A stretch of DNA of 22,361 nt from positions 1 through 22,361 of IMG/VR virus record IMGVR_UViG_3300042301_001267; one strand, written 5' to 3'. This document shows positions 1 to 13,017 of the stretch, in pieces. The stretch comes from a virus. Made by a program: the position numbers and the translations under genes. The notes under the pieces are model-generated. The model was not told the origin of the DNA. It saw nothing but the letters and a program-made list of their open reading frames with translations, and did not search any database. Numbering within the stretch: position 1 is the first letter of the stretch; each line of letters starts with the position of its first letter.

Positions 1-206
1 GCGCATGTATCAATGGCAATTGCGCCATCAATTGATGCACTCCCACGCAATGTTGGCGTTCCGCAAAATGACGGTAAATGTAGGGTTGAATCGACTTTAA
101 CGCGCTTCATTTGGTAACCTTGGGCGGTCATGGGTGTATATTGCGAAGGTTGCGCAAATGCGCCCAAAAATGCAAATAATAAAACGACTAATAATTTATA
201 CTTCAT
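1..206 (-). CDS. Secreted phage structural or surface protein, N-terminal part (runs off left edge)
   Basis: An open frame starts at ATG 206 and runs off the left edge with 68 complete codons and no stop. The first ~19 residues form a clean signal peptide: MKYK, a hydrophobic stretch rich in L, V, F and A, then a GAFA|Q cleavage site. The mature part begins QPSQYTPMTAQGY and contains the stretch DSTLHLPSFCGTPTLRG. From memory this resembles the start of proteins encoded downstream of tail genes in Bacteroidota prophages, but I cannot assign a function. The start overlaps the end of the tube-like gene (stop at 196) by 11 nt, so it belongs to the same operon. A phage tail-module gene with an export signal is unusual. 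It could be an exported adhesin, a fibre, or a protein placed on the host surface. The reading frame is well supported and the role is open. Confidence 0.75.
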   Translation of the reverse strand, partial: MKYKLLVVLLFAFLGAFAQPSQYTPMTAQGYQMKRVKVDSTLHLPSFCGTPTLRGSASIDGAIAIDTC

Positions 207-630
207 CGGCTGTAATTGTTATTGTACCCGTTCCGGTAAATGATGCGTTAAATGTTACGATATTATCAAAACTTGAAACCTCATTTATTGACGTTAAATA
301 AACCGTGCCTTGTTTCTGCAAATAACTCTGTGGTGTTGCATTGTCAACCTCGTAAAATGTTACAATTAACGCGGTGCCATTAATTAAAAACTCATAAAGA
401 TTATTTACACCCCACGTTGTGCCGGATGTAGCAATTAATGCCAACCCTTCAATGCTACCGGTAAAACCAATGGCGGCGGGTTTATACGTCCTAAATACGC
501 CCGTGCCCGCTCCGCTTGTTTCGATTAATTCGCGAGTTATATCAAACGTAATTGCGCGTGCGCAACCAACCAATTGATCCGTTCCATCATCCAATTTTAA
601 AATCGCATCAATACCACGGATTAAACCCAT
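196..630 (-). CDS. Tail tube-like protein, third copy, downstream of the tail tip
   Basis: This 144-aa protein starts at ATG 630. It shows the pattern of the TP901-1/λ-type major tail protein family: an N-terminal strand ending in a small Cys/Ala segment (LVGCARAITFD), then an ETSGAG segment, a hydrophobic GSIEGLAL strand and a C-terminal half ending FDNIVTFNASFTGTGTITI. That last segment aligns by eye with AFDSVGTFTLTLQPYGTPSL of the tube protein at 6629-7060, and the preceding L.N.T...GT.YL spacing also fits. It sits after the tail-tip gene (2-nt gap), not with the other tube genes. It may form a distal tube ring, cap the tip or be an adhesin base. The fold assignment is inferred from pattern only. 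Confidence 0.6.
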   Translation of the reverse strand: MGLIRGIDAILKLDDGTDQLVGCARAITFDITRELIETSGAGTGVFRTYKPAAIGFTGSIEGLALIATSGTTWGVNNLYEFLINGTALIVTFYEVDNATPQSYLQKQGTVYLTSINEVSSFDNIVTFNASFTGTGTITITADEV

Positions 631-632
631 TT

Positions 633-3149
633 TTATTGCTTTATATCGTAAATATACGTAAAATTATAAATAGTTGAATCCTCAAAATTGCTGAAATCGC
701 ACCACGGATCAACCAATTGTTCAAACATTGCCCACAAAGTAAAATCAATGGCCTCGTTGCGATAATCAATTGAAATACTACCAAATAACATAATATTGCT
801 ATTATTGTATGCGGGATCGTCAAAATAAAAGGATGATAAATTTGTAATTATTCTATCAAAAGAATTAATTTTCAACAACGTACCATTGTATTTATACCAT
901 GGTTTGCGGAAATTAAATAATTGTTCTTTAACGGTGTATTCGCCCAATGAATTAAAAACCCGATTGGCTTGTGTGTACGTTAATAATCCGCTTTCCGGAA
1001 ATGGACTAATGTTTGTAATATCTGCATTCAACCCAATAATATTTGTGCCGGTTATTTCATCGTAACTAAAACTTGTAACCCTATATTCCGCATCCCACCC
1101 CTCGGGAAAATCGGATAATGTAATATACTCTTCAACTACCAATTCAAGATTGCAACCATTATAATAAATAACATTTGGAATTTCTGGATCAACTGATAAT
1201 GTAACCGGTATTGTAAATGGCAAACCGCTTTTTATAATAACTTTATTTCCTAATTGTTGGATTCCATTAACAATTTGATCAGTAAATAATGCACCTCGAA
1301 TTATTCCCGATGGTGCAATATCCATTGATAATTCAGTTGATAATGAATTTTTAATTGTTGCCGTTTGTGTTTGGTTGTGGGTATGGCCAATAATTGTTTT
1401 ATTGCCTATATATACTCCCGTTGTTGTTATTTGAATGTTTTGGTATTGGCTTTGGTTTCCAATTGTTGAATCTAATTGCGGGAAATAAAAATAAAATTTA
1501 CCATCGTCAGGAATAACAAACTCTTTTTCAAAAGTATGCCATTGGTTGAAATTATCCCCTGCATCTACAAAGGATTGAACTATTGGCGATGAACCATAAA
1601 AAGTTAAATCATCACGTAAATAATTTTCATTTGTACCATCAAAATAAACTATTAAAAAGTATTCACGATATGTTGGCCCCGGAATACTAATGGATGTCCT
1701 AAAATCAAAAGAAAATTTAATTTTTGAACCTTTGTTTATTTCCAATGCCTCACTTTTAACCATCCGTGCCTGGTTAAATGGTGAATAATCATAAATTATT
1801 AATGCCCTTCCAATTTCTTTATTATCTGCATCTTTTGTTATTCTAAAATACGCATCGGATGATGGCGGATTGGCTAACGATGTATAATATTTTAAATCAT
1901 AATCGCTAATTGTATTTGATCCGCTTACAAATGTTGTTCGTAAATTTCCTAAATCTTGAAAATCTGTATTTGGAATTAACGATGATTGTTGATTATAATT
2001 AAATGTTTCATTTAAAAATTTATAAGGTCTTACAATTGATTTTATTAAACCCGTTGCAATGTCATTTTCATTTATACTAAACAAATCATTTCCGTAATAT
2101 AAACCAGTATTTGTAAATGTATTATCGTATACATACCCAATTAATGAAAATGCCGGATCTGTACCCGCTTGTTTGCGGTTAAAATATTCACCCCAACGCA
2201 CAATGTACCATTCACCTTTTGATTGAAAACATGTTGCATTGAAACGCCTCATAATTTTTTCTAATACAACATAACAATCATCCCAACTTTCGTTATTTTG
2301 GAATGTACCACCTTTTATAAATGTGCTATCTAACCAACGTTCGGTTGTTGCATCCTGCAAATACAATTGAGAAATAACATTTAACCCGCAATCAATATTG
2401 GTACTTTTTAAACACAAACGTACCAATGTTAATAATGAAACATAACCCAAAATATCTAATGGGGTTATAAAAGTAATATCGGCATTTTCTGCCGGATCTA
2501 ATATACTTCCATTGTATGCGGGTGTTGTGTAAATTTTATAAACATTATTAATATAATCATATTCCAACAAATTGCATGTAAATGTACCATTGTATAAAGT
2601 TGTGCCCGCAATTGTAAATTTTTGCCCTGGTTGCAACCCACTAACTTTTGGATCAGTTGTATTAAATGAACCGCCATAAACACCCGCCGAAATACTAATA
2701 TTTGTTTCTGTAACCGGTGTGCCTAAATTTTGAGCTGCTTCATTTAATGTTACACCTTTTAATGTGCCTAAATTATCCGTTGCAACAATCTTTATTTCAT
2801 GTGCATATTCAACCACAATTTCCTGACAATCATCTTGCAAAATATAACCACGAAATAAACATTGTTCGGTATCAACACGAATAAACTCTAAATAAAATTC
2901 ATCATCCGCCTCACTATAAAAATCCTCTAATGAAATGGTGCCATCATTTAAAATGCCAACGTTTAATGTGCACCCTTTTATTGGCTCCATTGGGTTATCA
3001 TCCTGCCATTCCTGGATGCATGCGTTGGCGGTCAATGTTATTTCACTCGTTGCACCGTCGTAATCCTTTTTGTAAATATTCAACCGGTAATTTAACGGCT
3101 CCGCTGAAATAGTATTAAAATTTGCAAAATAAATTAATCCGTATGGCAT
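633..3149 (-). CDS. Large tail tip / baseplate hub-like protein
   Basis: This 838-aa protein is encoded directly after the tape measure (2-nt gap). In siphophages that slot holds the distal tail and tail-tip (Dit/Tal) proteins. The N-terminal ~130 residues are β-rich (YRLNIYKKDYDG, then an ACIQEWQDDNPMEPIKGCTL segment and RGYIL). Around residues 235-330 there is a helical/β unit with LVRLCLKSTNIDCGLN, an ESWDDCYVVLEKIMRRFNAT stretch and GEWYIVRWGEYF. I recognise this 'W..cy.vLe.im..fna...q..G.W.ivR' signature from tail proteins of Bacteroidota prophages. The rest is long, β-rich and aromatic, with no repeats or catalytic motif that I can see. It probably closes the tube and contacts the receptor or carries fibres. 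The start ATG at 3149 is clear. Hub function is inferred from position. Confidence 0.6.
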   Translation of the reverse strand: MPYGLIYFANFNTISAEPLNYRLNIYKKDYDGATSEITLTANACIQEWQDDNPMEPIKGCTLNVGILNDGTISLEDFYSEADDEFYLEFIRVDTEQCLFRGYILQDDCQEIVVEYAHEIKIVATDNLGTLKGVTLNEAAQNLGTPVTETNISISAGVYGGSFNTTDPKVSGLQPGQKFTIAGTTLYNGTFTCNLLEYDYINNVYKIYTTPAYNGSILDPAENADITFITPLDILGYVSLLTLVRLCLKSTNIDCGLNVISQLYLQDATTERWLDSTFIKGGTFQNNESWDDCYVVLEKIMRRFNATCFQSKGEWYIVRWGEYFNRKQAGTDPAFSLIGYVYDNTFTNTGLYYGNDLFSINENDIATGLIKSIVRPYKFLNETFNYNQQSSLIPNTDFQDLGNLRTTFVSGSNTISDYDLKYYTSLANPPSSDAYFRITKDADNKEIGRALIIYDYSPFNQARMVKSEALEINKGSKIKFSFDFRTSISIPGPTYREYFLIVYFDGTNENYLRDDLTFYGSSPIVQSFVDAGDNFNQWHTFEKEFVIPDDGKFYFYFPQLDSTIGNQSQYQNIQITTTGVYIGNKTIIGHTHNQTQTATIKNSLSTELSMDIAPSGIIRGALFTDQIVNGIQQLGNKVIIKSGLPFTIPVTLSVDPEIPNVIYYNGCNLELVVEEYITLSDFPEGWDAEYRVTSFSYDEITGTNIIGLNADITNISPFPESGLLTYTQANRVFNSLGEYTVKEQLFNFRKPWYKYNGTLLKINSFDRIITNLSSFYFDDPAYNNSNIMLFGSISIDYRNEAIDFTLWAMFEQLVDPWCDFSNFEDSTIYNFTYIYDIKQ

Positions 3150-3151
3150 AA

Positions 3152-5062
3152 TTATGTTGTGCGGCCGTATGTCTGGCCGTATTTTTTATTACTGAAATAA
3201 ATATCTTGGCCGCGTAAAACTCCAAACACTTCAACCGCGCCCGCAATACCGCCCATCATTGATGCGGTTTGTGCGGCGGGTACAACCTGGCTACCACGCG
3301 GCAAATTAATTAATTCCGGCCCACGTTCACCAACCAACGCAACGCCGCCCGGTGCATTACGCGTACCAACGGCAAATGCTTGCTTTTTGCCTAATTGGCT
3401 ACTAATAACAGAACCCAACGCAATCAATGCAATGCCCGCAAAAATTGCCGTTTCAGGACTTAATATTAAAGATTGCTTTATTATTTTTAATAAACCCGCG
3501 GTTGTTACCAAATATTTTCCCAAATCCTGCAACCCGCCACCAATTATTTTAAAAATGCCATCAAAAAAATCACCTAATGTTGCTGTACCACTTAATGCAT
3601 TTCCAATTGTTTCACCTAACAAAACCCCAATATCTGCAAACGATGATCCCAAAATTTCGTTTGCTCTTTCTCCAAATTCAATAATACTTTGAAACGCTGG
3701 GCCACCTTCCGGTATTTTATCATCAAACTTGGGGAAAACTCTAATTTCAATACCATCCTTTGCAATTGATTTTTGCAAATCCTTTATTGATTCCGATTTG
3801 AATAAATTTTTATCACCCTTAAAATCAAATAATGATTTTTTAAATTTCCTATTTTCTAAATCTAATGCCTTACTAATTTCGGATGCGTCCGCCAATAATT
3901 TTACAATTATTTTACTATTCGGATCAACATTGAAATCGGATATTAATTTTTTTATCGCACCTTGAATCAAAGTAATTTGATCTTGCAATGTGCTTATATC
4001 CAATGCCTTTGATATATTTTGCTGATCCTTTAAATCCTCATTTAGTTTAGCTAATACAGATGCAATTGTTTCAACATCCTTTTTTTTCTGTATTGCATCC
4101 CTTTTTTCTTCTTCCGTTGCGGCTCTATTTTCGGCGGCGGCTAAATCACGTTCCTTTTGCAGATTTTTTTCTGCCTTTTGTAAATCTAATAATGATGCGG
4201 CCGCTTGTTTGGCTGTATTAATTAATGCCTGGTCGGCTTTGCTTAATCCGCTAATTAAATCGGCGGGTATTTGCTCTAAATTTTGGCCGTATGTGCCGGC
4301 TAAATCCCGCGCCTCTTTTGATGCTTTACGTGTAAAATTGCTAAATGCAATACCGCTTAATTCATACGCTTTTTTTACCGCGTCTTGTGCTTCAACTAAT
4401 TGTTCGGATGTTGTAATAAAACCCGCTTGCCTGGTTAATTGGCTTGCCTCTGTACCCGTAAAACGTGCCCGAATATTTATATCATTTAACCTTTGCGCCG
4501 CTTTAACTGATGAAGTAAAATTATCAAAATCAATTTTTATGCTTTTTATATCACCTTGCAACTTTAAAATTGATTGGTCCAATTGTTTGGTCTTGTCGCT
4601 ACTCTTAAACAATTCATCGCCAAACGTAACCAATAAAGATGATGCAACACCAACCGCCAAACCTAAACCCGCGGGGCCGCTTAATGATGATAACAATGAT
4701 TTAAACGCACTCCCGGTGCTGCCCGTTTCCGCTTGCAATCGTTGGAATGATTCTAACAACGGGTTAATGTTGTTAGCAATACCAATGAATCCAAACGGGG
4801 CATCCTGGGCAACCCTTGACAAGTTAACCAATGATTGTGTTGCCGCTCCGGATGTTTGCGATAATTTCGGCATTTGGCCACTCAAACCGCCAATTTTTTG
4901 CTCTAATAACGAAATATTGCGCTGCAACGTTGTAATTTCTTTAACGTCCGTAGCTTTTGCCAACGCCTGATTAAATTTCTTTAACTCATTTTGCGCTGCT
5001 ATCAATTCGGCGGTTAGCTTTGAACTATCCGCCCCCAACGTTATTTTTATTTCCTCTGCCAT
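3152..5062 (-). CDS. Tail tape measure protein
   Basis: This 636-aa protein sits between the tail assembly chaperones and the tail-tip gene, the invariant slot of the tape measure. The N-terminal ~60 residues are helical (an AELIAAQNELKKFNQAL segment), followed by a Q/S/A-rich segment and long charged coiled-coil runs around residues 280-330. Hydrophobic stretches lie near residue 135 (GLGLAVGVASSLLV) and near 536-557 (IFAGIALIALGSVI), typical of the parts thought to insert in the host membrane. The C-terminal motif AFAVGTRNAPGG, then LVGERGPELINLPRGSQVVP, is a hallmark of many siphophage tape measures. At about 1.5 Å per residue the tail would be near 95 nm. It should set tail length and leave the tube during DNA ejection. 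No lysozyme or peptidase domain is obvious. Confidence 0.9.
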   Translation of the reverse strand: MAEEIKITLGADSSKLTAELIAAQNELKKFNQALAKATDVKEITTLQRNISLLEQKIGGLSGQMPKLSQTSGAATQSLVNLSRVAQDAPFGFIGIANNINPLLESFQRLQAETGSTGSAFKSLLSSLSGPAGLGLAVGVASSLLVTFGDELFKSSDKTKQLDQSILKLQGDIKSIKIDFDNFTSSVKAAQRLNDINIRARFTGTEASQLTRQAGFITTSEQLVEAQDAVKKAYELSGIAFSNFTRKASKEARDLAGTYGQNLEQIPADLISGLSKADQALINTAKQAAASLLDLQKAEKNLQKERDLAAAENRAATEEEKRDAIQKKKDVETIASVLAKLNEDLKDQQNISKALDISTLQDQITLIQGAIKKLISDFNVDPNSKIIVKLLADASEISKALDLENRKFKKSLFDFKGDKNLFKSESIKDLQKSIAKDGIEIRVFPKFDDKIPEGGPAFQSIIEFGERANEILGSSFADIGVLLGETIGNALSGTATLGDFFDGIFKIIGGGLQDLGKYLVTTAGLLKIIKQSLILSPETAIFAGIALIALGSVISSQLGKKQAFAVGTRNAPGGVALVGERGPELINLPRGSQVVPAAQTASMMGGIAGAVEVFGVLRGQDIYFSNKKYGQTYGRTT

Positions 5063-5386
5063 TTATTTTACTTTTATGTTGTGCCGTGCCATTATTTCGT
5101 TATAACGTTCTTTTGTCATTGGCTCAACTTTTTTAACCTCTTTTTTATCATCCGCTTCCATCGGCCAAAACTTGTTTATATCCCCCAACGCTTTTGTGCC
5201 AACCATACTTTCAGCAATGCGAAAAGCGGCAAAACGAATTACAAAACTCTTTTCTTTTTGCCGCTCCTGGTATCCCTCAAATGCGGCGTAAAATTCCATT
5301 GGTAACGATGTGTAATAATCGTACGCCGTCCATCCTAATTTGCCCAATGCAAATTTTAAATTCTCATACGCCCGTTCCCTTATGCT
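5063..5386 (-). CDS. Tail assembly chaperone, downstream part (gpT-like), expressed by -1 frameshift
   Basis: This frame (stop at 5063) has no ATG start; the only plausible independent start is a TTG at 5347. It is open without a stop back to the A-run at the end of the upstream chaperone gene and is exactly in its -1 frame. Reading from base 5386 gives SIRERAYENLKFALGKLGWT and onward. The segment LGKLGWTAYDYYTSLPMEFY closely follows the 'LGWsp..fw.ltp.Ef' pattern common in tail assembly chaperone C-terminal parts. The arrangement matches λ G/GT: a short product ending at 5380 and a longer fusion (106 + 107 = 213 aa) reading through to 5063. The fusion should bind the tape measure, encoded immediately downstream (stop 5063, next ATG 5062). 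The C-terminus is charged (DDKKEVKKVEP). Confidence 0.75.
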   Translation of the reverse strand, partial: SIRERAYENLKFALGKLGWTAYDYYTSLPMEFYAAFEGYQERQKEKSFVIRFAAFRIAESMVGTKALGDINKFWPMEADDKKEVKKVEPMTKERYNEIMARHNIKVK

Positions 5387-5703
5387 TTTTTTTTCTCCTC
5401 AATTTCTTTGCCCTGCTTAATTAAATCCTGCCATACCTGCGTTTCATTCAATGTTTTGGTAATGGCTCCGATTGTTTCAGCTTTATTTGGCAATGCATCA
5501 ACCCAATCTGTAACCTCTTCAAATGTATGGTTGAACTCTTCGCGCTTAACGTACGCATTGCCCTTTAAACCGCCAAATACAACCGCATAAAAAAAACCCA
5601 TACTTGTTGTATTATCGTTATACATACTCATTAATTCAATGGCCAACTGATTAAACTTTAAACCCCTTTGTTGGCCACCAATTTCAATTTGCAAATAACT
5701 CAT
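5380..5703 (-). CDS. Tail assembly chaperone, upstream part (gpG-like)
   Basis: This 107-aa protein starts at ATG 5703 and lies between the tail tube gene and the tape measure, where siphophages encode chaperones that coat the tape measure during tail assembly. The start MSYLQIEIGGQQRGLKFNQL, followed by an acidic/helical body with FNHTFEEVTDWVDAL, fits the chaperone N-domain families, in which an 'i.i.g..y.l.f' start is followed by helices. It ends EEKKKA-stop, and the lysine codons are the A-rich slip site. Most ribosomes should stop here and a minority should shift to the -1 frame. The assignment rests on position, size and the frameshift architecture more than on a specific motif. Confidence 0.75.
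   Translation of the reverse strand: MSYLQIEIGGQQRGLKFNQLAIELMSMYNDNTTSMGFFYAVVFGGLKGNAYVKREEFNHTFEEVTDWVDALPNKAETIGAITKTLNETQVWQDLIKQGKEIEEKKKA
5386..5395 (-). other. Probable -1 ribosomal frameshift (or slippage) site
   Basis: On the minus strand the end of the chaperone gene reads GAG GAG AAA AAA AAA GCA TAA. The run of nine A (5394-5386) contains the slippery heptamer A AAA AAA in the correct phase, one sense codon before the zero-frame stop. Shifting back one base opens the -1 frame for 107 further codons to 5063. A run of nine A could equally cause RNA polymerase slippage, with the same protein result. I did not identify a convincing downstream pseudoknot by eye. Confidence 0.75.
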
Positions 5704-5721: not shown

Positions 5722-6624
5722 TTAAAAATATCTAATTGCGATAATGTTTTCCGTTTGTGTTTTTAAATAATTATTTGGCGGATCAACTACAAAAACACCA
5801 GGTGATAAAATACTAATATTTACACCACTACATGTAACATCACTTGTTTCTGTACTTGAATAATAAACAAAACTATTTGAACTACCAGTTAAATCAAACA
5901 CGGCGGTTAAATCACCCGCATTATTCAACGCTTCAATCACTTCATTTTGTGTTGGTAATTGCCATTGAACGCCGTATGTATCCCGGATATAATTTGCCGC
6001 AATTGTTGGTGTAGAATCGGCCGCAACAATTGTGTTTGTGTTTGCGGTTGCAAATCCAATTTCATTTGCATACGCGCCGCACTCAAAATTATTGCAACCG
6101 TATTCGTAACGGTCAATATTAGGTGTACCAACTTGTTTAACTACATATCCATGATCACCCGATTCATCCAAATATGCAATATATCCATCCAATAACGATT
6201 GCCCAATATAAAATGAATAGGTTGATATTGACGGGGTGCCGTAACATTGTATGGTGCCCGTAAATGTGCCTACATTATCAAATGCGTATGTGCTTGATAA
6301 CTCCGATAAGAACCCAATGCCGCTTTGCACTTCATCGCCCGTTTTTGGTATGGCGGGTGAAATTTCAAATGTAATGGCAGATTCGGCGCGTAAAAACGTG
6401 CGTAAATCCGTGCCGCTAATTTTGCCGCCGTCGGGATCTTGCAAATGTTGCCCCTCAAAACTAAAACTAATTTCGAGCGATCCCGGCGATTTATCCGGAC
6501 CGCATGCGCTTGACGCATCAACAACGGTAACCGAATCATTGGATGATACGGATGTTAAACACACAACCGTATCACCATTGATTTTTAAAATATAATCACC
6601 CCCCGCAACTTTGTGTTCGGCCAT
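5722..6624 (-). CDS. Tail tube protein fused to a C-type-lectin-like (Lcl/DUF1566) domain
   Basis: This 300-aa protein starts at ATG 6624. Residues 1-135 are a close paralogue of the 143-aa tube protein encoded just upstream: they share MAEHKV, DASSACGPDKSPG, QHLQDP, GKISGT and LSELSSTYAFD at matching positions. Residues ~138-300 are a different domain. GYIAYLDESGDHGYVV (147-162), IGFATANTNTIVAA (189-202), WQLPTQNEVIEAL (221-233), YYSSTE (254-259) and the final NIIAIRYF follow the Lcl/DUF1566 pattern (G-NT-I, W-LP-EL, YWSSTE, VR-R), which has a C-type-lectin-like fold. Tube subunits therefore likely display an adhesion domain on the tail exterior, comparable in principle to the extra Ig-like domain of λ gpV. 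Stop 5722 leaves an 18-nt gap to the chaperone start. Which tube copy dominates in the virion is unknown. Confidence 0.85.
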   Translation of the reverse strand: MAEHKVAGGDYILKINGDTVVCLTSVSSNDSVTVVDASSACGPDKSPGSLEISFSFEGQHLQDPDGGKISGTDLRTFLRAESAITFEISPAIPKTGDEVQSGIGFLSELSSTYAFDNVGTFTGTIQCYGTPSISTYSFYIGQSLLDGYIAYLDESGDHGYVVKQVGTPNIDRYEYGCNNFECGAYANEIGFATANTNTIVAADSTPTIAANYIRDTYGVQWQLPTQNEVIEALNNAGDLTAVFDLTGSSNSFVYYSSTETSDVTCSGVNISILSPGVFVVDPPNNYLKTQTENIIAIRYF

Positions 6625-6628
6625 AATA

Positions 6629-7060
6629 TTAATCGTAAATTGTTAACGATGGTGTGCCGTACGGCTGTAATGTTAATGTAAATGTGCCAACGGAATCAAA
6701 CGCGTATGTGCTTGACAACTCCGATAAATATCCGGTGCCCTCTTCTATTTCATCACCAATTTGCGGCGTTTCCGGTGCAATCTTAAATCCAATGGTTGTT
6801 TTGTTACGCAACAATTGACGGAGTGATGTACCGCTAATTTTACCGCTGTTTGGATCTTGCAAATGTTGCGCCTCCGCACTATATGATAATTCTAATGTAC
6901 CAGGTGATTTGTCCGGACCGCATGCGCTTGACGCGTCCACAACGGTAATTGAATCACTTTTACTTACTGATGTTAAACACACAACCATGTCGTATGATGT
7001 GCCGCCCGATGGATCAATAAACATCAACATTGTACCCCCGGTTACTTTGTGCTCTGCCAT
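6629..7060 (-). CDS. Major tail tube protein (plain copy)
   Basis: This 143-aa protein starts at ATG 7060 and follows the tail terminator gene, the normal place of the major tail protein. It has the family's β-rich pattern: MAEHKVTGG, a VVCLTSVSKSDSITVVDASS strand pair, QHLQDPNSGKISGTSLRQLL, and a C-terminal FDSVGTFTLTLQPYGTPS strand. It is a tandem duplicate of residues 1-135 of the next gene (4-nt gap, stop 6629 to ATG 6624). The DNA also agrees: 23 identical bases at 6912-6934 and 6494-6516. Subunits should stack as hexameric rings around the tape measure. The short form has no decoration and probably co-assembles or alternates with the decorated paralogue. Confidence 0.85.
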   Translation of the reverse strand: MAEHKVTGGTMLMFIDPSGGTSYDMVVCLTSVSKSDSITVVDASSACGPDKSPGTLELSYSAEAQHLQDPNSGKISGTSLRQLLRNKTTIGFKIAPETPQIGDEIEEGTGYLSELSSTYAFDSVGTFTLTLQPYGTPSLTIYD

Positions 7061-7075
7061 TTTTTTATTTGTTTT

Positions 7076-7498
7076 TTAATTAATAAATATATCTTGTTTG
7101 AATACTAACACTCTGCTAATATACACTTTTCCGCCCATTTCACCAATACGCTCGGTGCGGTCTGTTTGTACGCTTAAATTTAGCATTTGCAACCCATCCC
7201 CCGTTAAATCTAACACGCTTGTGCTCGTTGGTTTTATTGCCTCTAATATTTGCCCCGTTGCTTCATTAAGTAGCTTTGAATTGTTGTATTTATATTCCCA
7301 ACTATGTATTGAAACTTGCAATGTTGTGTTTACATCGCTTGAATTATCGGTACTCGTTTCAATGCTTGTTGCGTCCGATAATACAACATAAATTTTATCC
7401 TTTATATCGTCCGGCTCTTCGCCTTCATACACGGGCAAATCCAATGCGCTTATTACATTGTAATACGCAACCATCAATGCCGTGTTTATATCTTTCAT
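7076..7498 (-). CDS. Tail terminator protein (DUF3168-like)
   Basis: This 140-aa protein starts at ATG 7498 and overlaps the preceding gene by ATGA (TGA stop 7497-7495), indicating translational coupling. The N-terminus (ALMVAYYNVISALDLPVYEG), then IYVVLSDATSIE and the VSIHSWEY segment, fit the DUF3168/gpU-like tail terminator pattern: a helix, then 'PVY', then 'yv.lg...'. The later NLSVQTDRTERIGEMGGKVY portion matches the closing strands. It sits between the gp10-like neck protein and the tail tube gene, the usual order. It should cap the finished tail tube and make the joint to the head. No anomaly seen. Confidence 0.8.
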   Translation of the reverse strand: MKDINTALMVAYYNVISALDLPVYEGEEPDDIKDKIYVVLSDATSIETSTDNSSDVNTTLQVSIHSWEYKYNNSKLLNEATGQILEAIKPTSTSVLDLTGDGLQMLNLSVQTDRTERIGEMGGKVYISRVLVFKQDIFIN

Positions 7499-11213: not shown

Positions 11214-11393
11214 TTAATCCTCAAAATCTGTGTTTATTTTTTCAAATACTATATCATTACCTTGGTTTGGCAATGGCTCGGTGTGTAAATTATCACCAAC
11301 TATTATTTCATCTGGTATGCCATTTGGAAATGCAAAACACGATTTATCACCGAAATAATGAACACATAAAAAACAATTATCATTTATTGGCAT
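11214..11393 (-). CDS. Small Cys-rich conserved phage protein (59 aa)
   Basis: This short frame reads from ATG 11393 to TAA 11214. Its start overlaps the end of the MuF gene by 14 nt and its stop is 37 nt before the protease start, so it fits the operon. The protein has CFLC, a downstream KSCFAFPNGIPDEI and HTEPLPNQGNDIVFE. From memory the 'CxxC..(y)..d..C.AFP.GIP.eI..G...H..p...D.gi.Fe' pattern is a recurrent small protein in bacteria and prophages, possibly metal-binding through its cysteines and histidines (C7, C10, C19). Its role is unknown. The reading frame, motif and placement make it a real gene. Confidence 0.75.
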   Translation of the reverse strand: MPINDNCFLCVHYFGDKSCFAFPNGIPDEIIVGDNLHTEPLPNQGNDIVFEKINTDFED

Positions 11394-13017
11394 AATCTTT
11401 AAGTTTTATAAAAAAGTTAAATAATGATTTTGGCATTTTTTCCGGTTCTCTGTAAAACATTACCAAAGATTCAGCGAATGTTTCGTGCAAATCCTGGTTG
11501 GAATATTTACTAATACTGAATCTTTCTGCATCTGTTAAATTCTTATATATATTCATATATTCATCCCGCATTAATTTTGCTTCATTTGTAAACTCCATTA
11601 ACCGCGTTGCAGGGTTTATTGTGCCATATTTTGGCAAAATTAACCTTCTATTTATTAAACCCAATAATTGATCCTCTATTGTATGGCCCAATTCATGAAT
11701 AAATAAATCCTCTAAAACTTCATTTTCTGTTCTATGCACCAAATAACGATCATAATTTAATGCATATTGTGTTTGTTTTATTGCTTTATTTTTTAATGCG
11801 GTTTTACTTGGATCTGTTATATCTTCAAATTGCTTTAATCGTTGTTCATATATTTTCTTATAATTAACCACATTATCATTAAAAATGCGCCTTATTTCAT
11901 CCGGTGTGGTTTTTGATTTATTAAATTTAATTTCAATTCCATTACCCAAACCTAATGATTTTGAACCGCCTTTTAAATTCTGTAATGGCTGCAAATTAAA
12001 ATCTGTTATAACACGTTTCATAATGTTATTGATTTTATTTACATCATTCACATTCATTCCGGAATAAGAAACATTTTTTGTAATACCGTTTTCTTTTGCC
12101 CAAATTTCAGCTTCTTTTATACTTCGTGCATTACTAATGCTTATAACATTTTGTTGCGGTATTGCTTCAATTGGTATTGGTTTTGGTGGTATTTGAAAAA
12201 CTGGTAAATTATTAACTGGTTTTACATTACTCCTAATAATATTACCGTTTGCATCCCGTTTAGCTTTAAACGCCACAACACAACGACAATTAACAACCTC
12301 ACCGGCGGGCACTTCCAAACCATTTGGTTGGATCCGCACACCCGGTTGCATCATTTTTACAATGCCATATTTAATTGAATTTATAGTAAACGGTTGATCA
12401 TAATCAACAACCTTGCCATCCACTTGCCGGTGATCATGCCGCGTGCGGCTATCTTTTACCGCAATCCAATATTTATTTAATTGGTTACCGCTTTCCTGGG
12501 CATAAATCATTGCCGCCCCGTTTGCACTTGTTACGGTTTCCGTCCTGGCAATCCTTCGCGCCCTCATTGGTCCAAACTCTGGATGCTTAATTAACGCCGC
12601 TACTATTTCATCAAATGATGCGCCCGTTTGCGCCGCCTGGCTTAATACACGGATAATTATTTCACGGCTATATTGCGTCATTAAATTGGCATCGTTTAAC
12701 AAATCCACGCCGTAATATTGCTGCATCAATTCTACAATCCGTGCATTAAACCCCATTTGCCCGGTTACAAAGTTATCATCCTGCTTTAATGCAATTTCAC
12801 GTGTTGATGTGGCCCACTTTGGCCCAACGTATTTATAAAGATTAACCAACACATCATAAATCGGAAATGCCGGAATAGTTGCAACATCTCTACTCTTTAT
12901 AAACGCGTCCAATTGTATGCGCAATGCTTTGGTAAAACGTGGCGTGTATTTCCGCTCCATTTGTTGTTGGAAATTATCCCAACGTTTCCAATAATTGTTT
13001 TGCTCCCGCTTTGTCAT
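11380..13017 (-). CDS. MuF-type minor head protein with C-terminal HExxH metallopeptidase-like domain
   Basis: This 545-aa protein starts at ATG 13017, overlapping the previous stop by ATGA. Residues ~115-255 form the MuF/SPP1-gp7 domain: RRIARTETVTSANGAAM (154-170), then DSRTRHDHRQVDGKVVDYDQ (189-208) and VVNCRCVV (241-248), the classic 'aRTE', 'D.rTr..H...dG' and 'nCrC' marks. It should reside at the head interior near the portal. After a Pro-rich linker (~264-290), residues ~295-545 form a second domain with DLFIHELGHTIED (437-449, HExxH at 441-445) and DLHETFAESLVMFY (509-522), whose ETFAE could supply the third zinc ligand. This layout resembles zincin effectors of the lethal-factor (ATLF) type carried by some polymorphic toxins. 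Injection with DNA is an inference. Confidence 0.85.
   Translation of the reverse strand: MTKREQNNYWKRWDNFQQQMERKYTPRFTKALRIQLDAFIKSRDVATIPAFPIYDVLVNLYKYVGPKWATSTREIALKQDDNFVTGQMGFNARIVELMQQYYGVDLLNDANLMTQYSREIIIRVLSQAAQTGASFDEIVAALIKHPEFGPMRARRIARTETVTSANGAAMIYAQESGNQLNKYWIAVKDSRTRHDHRQVDGKVVDYDQPFTINSIKYGIVKMMQPGVRIQPNGLEVPAGEVVNCRCVVAFKAKRDANGNIIRSNVKPVNNLPVFQIPPKPIPIEAIPQQNVISISNARSIKEAEIWAKENGITKNVSYSGMNVNDVNKINNIMKRVITDFNLQPLQNLKGGSKSLGLGNGIEIKFNKSKTTPDEIRRIFNDNVVNYKKIYEQRLKQFEDITDPSKTALKNKAIKQTQYALNYDRYLVHRTENEVLEDLFIHELGHTIEDQLLGLINRRLILPKYGTINPATRLMEFTNEAKLMRDEYMNIYKNLTDAERFSISKYSNQDLHETFAESLVMFYREPEKMPKSLFNFFIKLKDYANK

Follow-up and report, generated by a model that had tools for sequence, protein, structure and literature searches.

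An optional second tail-tube gene with exchangeable C-terminal modules in a group of uncultivated phages

Why should a phage encode two tail-tube proteins side by side, only one of which carries a long C-terminal extension? The question is raised by a virus record of 22,361 bases, probably a fragment of a genome, taken whole (hereafter the ‘window’). An earlier note had picked out two adjacent open reading frames; both are present at the coordinates it gave, on the minus strand, and are referred to here as A, which is plain, and B, which is extended. We suggest, with a probability of roughly 0.6, that A builds the tube, and that B serves as a minor, dispensable subunit of it, bearing surface modules that can be exchanged, face outward and are probably adhesive.

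The tail genes of the window occupy the minus strand, in the order that is standard for siphophages. The tail terminator (7076..7498; PHROG 176, tail terminator, E 3.4e-5) forms the upstream boundary of the tube genes and is followed by A (6629..7060, 143 amino acids) and then by B, where 6217..6624 encodes an N-terminal tube domain (residues 1-136), and 5722..6216 a C-terminal module (residues 137-300 plus the stop). The distal boundary of the ‘slot’ occupied by B is a G-like tail assembly chaperone frame of 107 amino acids (5380..5703), which sits between tube and tape measure, and has a KFNQLAIE motif that is kept in relatives. Near the end of this frame an A9G slippery run (5385..5394) precedes the T-like second half of the chaperone (5063..5347), a frame that matches PHROG 16333 (E 1.1e-5; also matched by gp086 of Cellulophaga phage phi10:1), and which, as in many relatives, has no ATG start. 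In 68 of 70 relatives an A-run slippery site occupies the equivalent position; the arrangement is likely to be a -1 frameshift of the type seen in lambda G/GT, and strongly conserved. Beyond it lie the tape measure protein (3152..5062, 636 amino acids; PHROG 19914 and 167, tail length tape measure, E 3.6e-8 and 4.5e-6), and a probable distal-tail/hub protein of 838 amino acids (633..3149), so called from its position after the tape measure and with no family match. A third tube-like gene, C (196..630; PHROG 1407, major tail protein, E 4.7e-10), which the earlier note had overlooked, closes the module on the side of the tail tip. Homologues of C are found at the same place in relatives (gp089 in Cellulophaga phage phi10:1), several with an inserted domain of ~130 residues, and its product is probably a tail-tip ring protein.

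Both A and B belong to the tail-tube family, as had been supposed, with matches to PHROG 1407 (major tail protein) at E 1.4e-6 and 4.1e-8, respectively; a Pfam search with each as a single protein gave no match. They are placed between the tail terminator and the chaperone/tape measure in relatives as well as in the window, and a tblastn search of the contig with A as query finds B at E 1.5e-56, far beyond chance. Alignment of the two tube domains over 135 codons gives 66.7% identity for protein and 68.4% for DNA. Of 45 four-fold sites that can be compared, 25 are different; with more than half of such sites changed, the duplication is not recent, and their earlier description as ‘near-duplicates’ was too strong. 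The 23 identical bases that had been pointed out (6494-6516 and 6912-6934) are exact, and are the longest run common to both genes. An AlphaFold2 model of B built from 25 relatives is moderately confident in its tube half, with several stretches at pLDDT <50, and Foldseek matches this first half to the monocin, lambda gpV, 80alpha and GTA tubes (best E 9.4e-5, probability 1.00). By these comparisons, A and B are clear but diverged tail-tube paralogues, with B representing an old paralogue lineage. The same pair recurs on three other contigs at 99-100% identity, which excludes an assembly artefact; more widely, orthologues of A in viral contigs are mostly 70-87% identical, and mean column identity in the A-group (A2) alignment is 84%. 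As the earlier note maintained, these are separate genes: the TAA of A lies four bases ahead of the ATG of B, in a different frame, and no slippery run was seen at the junction. A frameshift origin for the extension of B was rejected, given separate frames with their own ATGs and tube domains that are 67% identical.

What, then, does B carry that A does not? The extension is confined to B, just as was first noticed, and forms a module of 164 residues (137-300). Modelled alone by AlphaFold2, with 28 relatives, it gave a pLDDT of 92.6 and a pTM of 0.89, and the top Foldseek match in the PDB is the C-terminal domain of Legionella Lcl (8q4e; E 7.2e-5, probability 1.00, TM 0.52/0.63). The B. ovatus fimbrial protein BACOVA_04982 comes next, and Lcl and the Bacteroides fimbrial protein (4eps is among the structural matches) are the only good ones. 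A profile of 28 modules finds Lcl among PDB sequences at E 7.5e-15; phmmer hits of the single module to designed armadillo proteins were weak, and taken as chance. Against Pfam Lcl_C / DUF1566 (PF07603), B scores 13.5 bits where the curated cut-off is 34.9, and 25 of the 28 modules match individually at E up to 1 (best 1.1e-8). The Lcl fold implied by the original proposal is upheld, so that the lack of a fold match, which the earlier note had named as grounds for refutation, is not what was observed. The motifs quoted for the module fall in columns conserved among relatives (W221, P224 and the final YF). The broader label of ‘lectin-like’ survives only in part: the match to Lcl stands, whereas langerin and the C-type lectin-like domains of snake venoms come up only with insignificant scores (E 0.3 or worse), and a relation to C-type lectins holds only via Lcl (PMC11162425).

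The net charge of the module, calculated from its sequence, is -13 in the window and -6 to -13 across all 28. Lcl binds sulphated glycans via a basic face, and is without the Ca2+/carbohydrate motifs of C-type lectins (PMC11162425). Since all 28 modules are acidic, binding of sulphated glycans in the manner of Lcl seems unlikely and mucus binding is not to be assumed, such that the capsule- or mucus-glycan role envisaged in the earlier note is at best weakly supported. Inside the coding region of the module, a 94-base stretch at 6014-6105 is ~68% self-complementary, with an RNA that folds better than shuffles (z -3); this is perhaps chance.

Searches with A and B as queries returned 78 distinct viral loci. 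A is plain throughout, at ~143 amino acids, and is present wherever the region is intact; B never occurs without it. Across 67 complete intervals between A and the chaperone, 39 are filled, by one or two extra tube copies, and 28 are empty, figures that do not amount to an unbiased frequency because the loci came partly from searches with B and some near-identical contigs are counted. The empty count is that of 30 intervals scored as empty, minus two (L020 and L021) that carry an overlapping Lcl-type B; an empty slot is a short gap of about 80 bases at most. The C-termini found in the slot include Lcl-like (20), Fib_succ_major (4; PF09603, E 6.3e-31), Ig-like (4) and Ig plus Lcl (2; He_PIG, E 1.2e-11), together with BspA-type leucine-rich ones (PF13306, E 1e-11); in two loci a third tube copy, PKD/LRR-like, comes after an Lcl one. 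The labels Ig-like and PKD/LRR-like follow sequence appearance and weak profile matches. Many modules are joined to the tube domain by glycine-rich linkers, and all belong to types that are characteristic of proteins at the cell surface or outside the cell. That the slot should be optional, and its modules interchangeable, is a larger pattern, which the earlier note had not foreseen.

Two further features of these loci deserve mention. The three tandem tube copies (plain, Lcl, PKD/LRR-like; L030:1788-4196 and L064:6001-8406) occur in phages whose tape measure proteins are unusually long, at 1214 and 1360 amino acids. In a few other loci the slot contains a small extra gene (L102:6951-7400, L109:1283-1711 and L079:6908-7384), coming after a second tube copy that is extended slightly or not at all; it starts MG.KIS.LP in L102 and L109, has a weak tail-fibre family match in L079, and is perhaps a separately encoded decoration.

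In a tree of tube domains, 40 extended copies form one clade apart from A, at a weak support of 96/75, some divergent extended copies lying outside it on long branches, unplaced; phages without B are scattered among the A branches of those that have it. Tube copies 1 and 2 of one locus (L043:390-1710) group together, and this pair joins the extended-copy clade at 92/85, likely reflecting a single gene conversion between A and B. At 70 alignment columns the same residue is found in at least 90% of sequences in both the A and B groups, including the VDASSACGPDKSPG and GQHLQDP stretches, as would be expected if both proteins still polymerise. Set against this are differences that are all but constant: Lys87 of A (67/67) against Glu81 of B (35/38), Thr10 of A against mostly Asp/Asn in B, and Ala7 of A against mostly Gln/Glu. 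Such positions may lie at a contact between subunits that is not the same for A as for B, though, as a difference between clades, they may reflect a single event.

B is under purifying selection, with a dN/dS of 0.05-0.20 for its tube domain in eight pairs and low values in both of its parts. Its modules, in turn, are exchanged. Module types differ within single B subclades, and between L029 and L052 the modules are near-identical (dS 0.086) while the tube domains are not (dS 0.50), a combination that implies transfer of the module and, at the level of sequence, shows it directly. In keeping with such movement, divergence of the Lcl module follows that of A less closely than does divergence of the B tube domain (Mantel r 0.29 vs 0.70).

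Synthesising these findings, we propose a model in which A would be the structural subunit that builds the tail tube, and B an ancient paralogue whose tube domain has been retained as an ‘anchor’. B would enter the same tube as A, as an optional minor subunit, and so display its exchangeable C-terminal module on the exterior of the tail, where such modules would most likely make weak, repeated contacts with the host surface or with its surroundings, ahead of engagement by the tail tip. The ratio of A to B may be set by their separate translation, and a mixed tube with a tunable ratio is plausible on the present evidence. More tentatively, and at somewhat less than even odds, the slot may act as an interchangeable ‘rail mount’ in a widespread group of uncultivated phages: a constant tube gene next to an optional position, which recombination would fill with one or another of several unrelated binding folds (Lcl-like, Fib_succ_major, Ig, leucine-rich), in some cases with two together. 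Tail-side contact with host or surface could then evolve apart from the tube and from receptor-binding proteins at the tip.

The same observations can be read in other ways, of which the most serious is that B forms one dedicated ring, for instance by the terminator or the tail tip, giving around six lectin-like modules per tail, all in one place. The long separation of the B lineage, and the residues (7, 10 and 87) at which it differs in a fixed way from A, could mean just this, with B confined to one defined place rather than mixing freely, and homogenisation of the two genes is seen in one case only (L043); adhesins are moreover found at the neck or tip in other siphophages (PMC6669499). 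Nevertheless, 28 intervals without B indicate that no fixed position in the tail needs it, the tip already has a tube-like protein of its own in C (196-630), and B adjoins A rather than the tip genes. A constant A beside an optional B fits decoration better than an essential ring, and we consider the dedicated ring unlikely, albeit a reading to be taken seriously. That B should instead be an alternative tube, replacing A in some virions or under some conditions, would suit its complete tube domain and conserved loops, but is improbable, as B is never alone, A is present at every locus with the region intact, and only four bases separate the two genes, which share one orientation; no switching element was seen.

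Two readings are fainter still. DUF1566 and Fib_succ_major are target motifs of diversity-generating retroelements (DGRs) in Bacuni phages (PMC8143477), and the same fimbrial protein (4eps) is among the structural matches of the module, from which it might be supposed that B is a DGR target, with the module a scaffold diversified at its 3' end. Against this, no reverse transcriptase was found in the records of 34 relatives (mostly fragments, so that absence is no proof), the window contains no template repeat of the 3' end, and the changes between close pairs include many that are synonymous and are spread over all codon positions; we regard it as very improbable. Hardly any weight, likewise, attaches to the idea that B is a duplicate in decay or evolving neutrally, and plays no part in the virion: its absence from many relatives would be expected of one, but both parts of B have a low dN/dS, frames are intact in 39 intervals and new modules have been acquired repeatedly.

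Decorated tail tubes are already known, lambda included. The nearest parallel to the decorating subunit proposed here is SPP1, whose tails mix gp17.1 and the extended gp17.1* at 3:1 (PMC8718954), the extension being dispensable (PMC8718954, PMC6316719). Plain and C-terminally extended tube subunits are common to both, together in one tail for SPP1 and, under our model, here as well; SPP1, however, uses one gene, a +1 frameshift and an FN3 extension, whereas we find two diverged genes and a non-Ig, Lcl-type module. In 936 lactococcal phages a tail CBM binds the host (PMC6669499), and the 936-group MTP with TpeX resembles our system in having a variable (there carbohydrate-binding) extension on the tail tube, but differs in its single MTP gene with a programmed frameshift, its CBM folds and its Gram-positive host. 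Phages of several clusters have been reported with two major tail proteins (PMC11080557). In Microbacterium phage DizzyRudy, gp17, gp19 and gp20 (annotated major tail proteins) form a tandem set of paralogues that share 42-51% identity in their tube region, and one of them (gp19, 586 amino acids) likewise has a long C-terminal extension; its tubes, in contrast, are of an unrelated family (PHROG 2645) and its host is actinobacterial. Of the module's own relatives, the C-terminal domain of Legionella Lcl (8Q4E) has the same fold and significant profile similarity, but Lcl is a trimeric, collagen-stalk bacterial adhesin with a basic glycan-binding face (PMC11162425), while the phage module is acidic and borne on a tube subunit. 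The Bacuni phages of Bacteroides share the binding-domain families DUF1566 / Fib_succ_major (PMC8143477), theirs being DGR-diversified targets, where no DGR was found here in the window and 34 records, mostly fragments.

Tube decoration, and tandem plain and extended tube genes (DizzyRudy), are therefore not new. Our literature search, which covered few of the subscription papers, found no description of a tail tube bearing a domain of the Lcl or the Fib_succ_major family; what appears to be new is a tube anchor that carries modules of Lcl, Fib_succ_major or leucine-rich type, together with genomic evidence for one conserved slot that is empty in some phages and filled by different folds in others. 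If our reading is correct, gene duplication would provide a second genetic route, alongside frameshifting, to a minority of adhesive domains on the tail tube, and the tube itself would be a platform for the exchange of unrelated binding folds. Phages with empty and filled slots also form a natural set in which to ask what effect decoration of the tail has.

As to host, no relative of A was found in 84,980 bacterial and archaeal species genomes, so neither a prophage nor a host could be assigned from these. Among isolated phages the nearest tube relatives are those of Flavobacterium phage 11b and Cellulophaga phage phi10:1 (26-31% identity), which makes a Bacteroidota host likely; the isolated phages in the collection held no relative of B, and gp37 of Flavobacterium phage 11b, which adjoins the tube gene, was considered as a second tube and set aside, with no recognisable tube match. 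Outside the tail genes of the window, a Mu F-like head protein (11380-13017, minus strand) has a metallopeptidase-like C-terminal part, with an HELGH motif and a weak Peptidase_M90 match at residues 403-541; the fusion is unusual, and may represent a processing protease or an injected enzyme.
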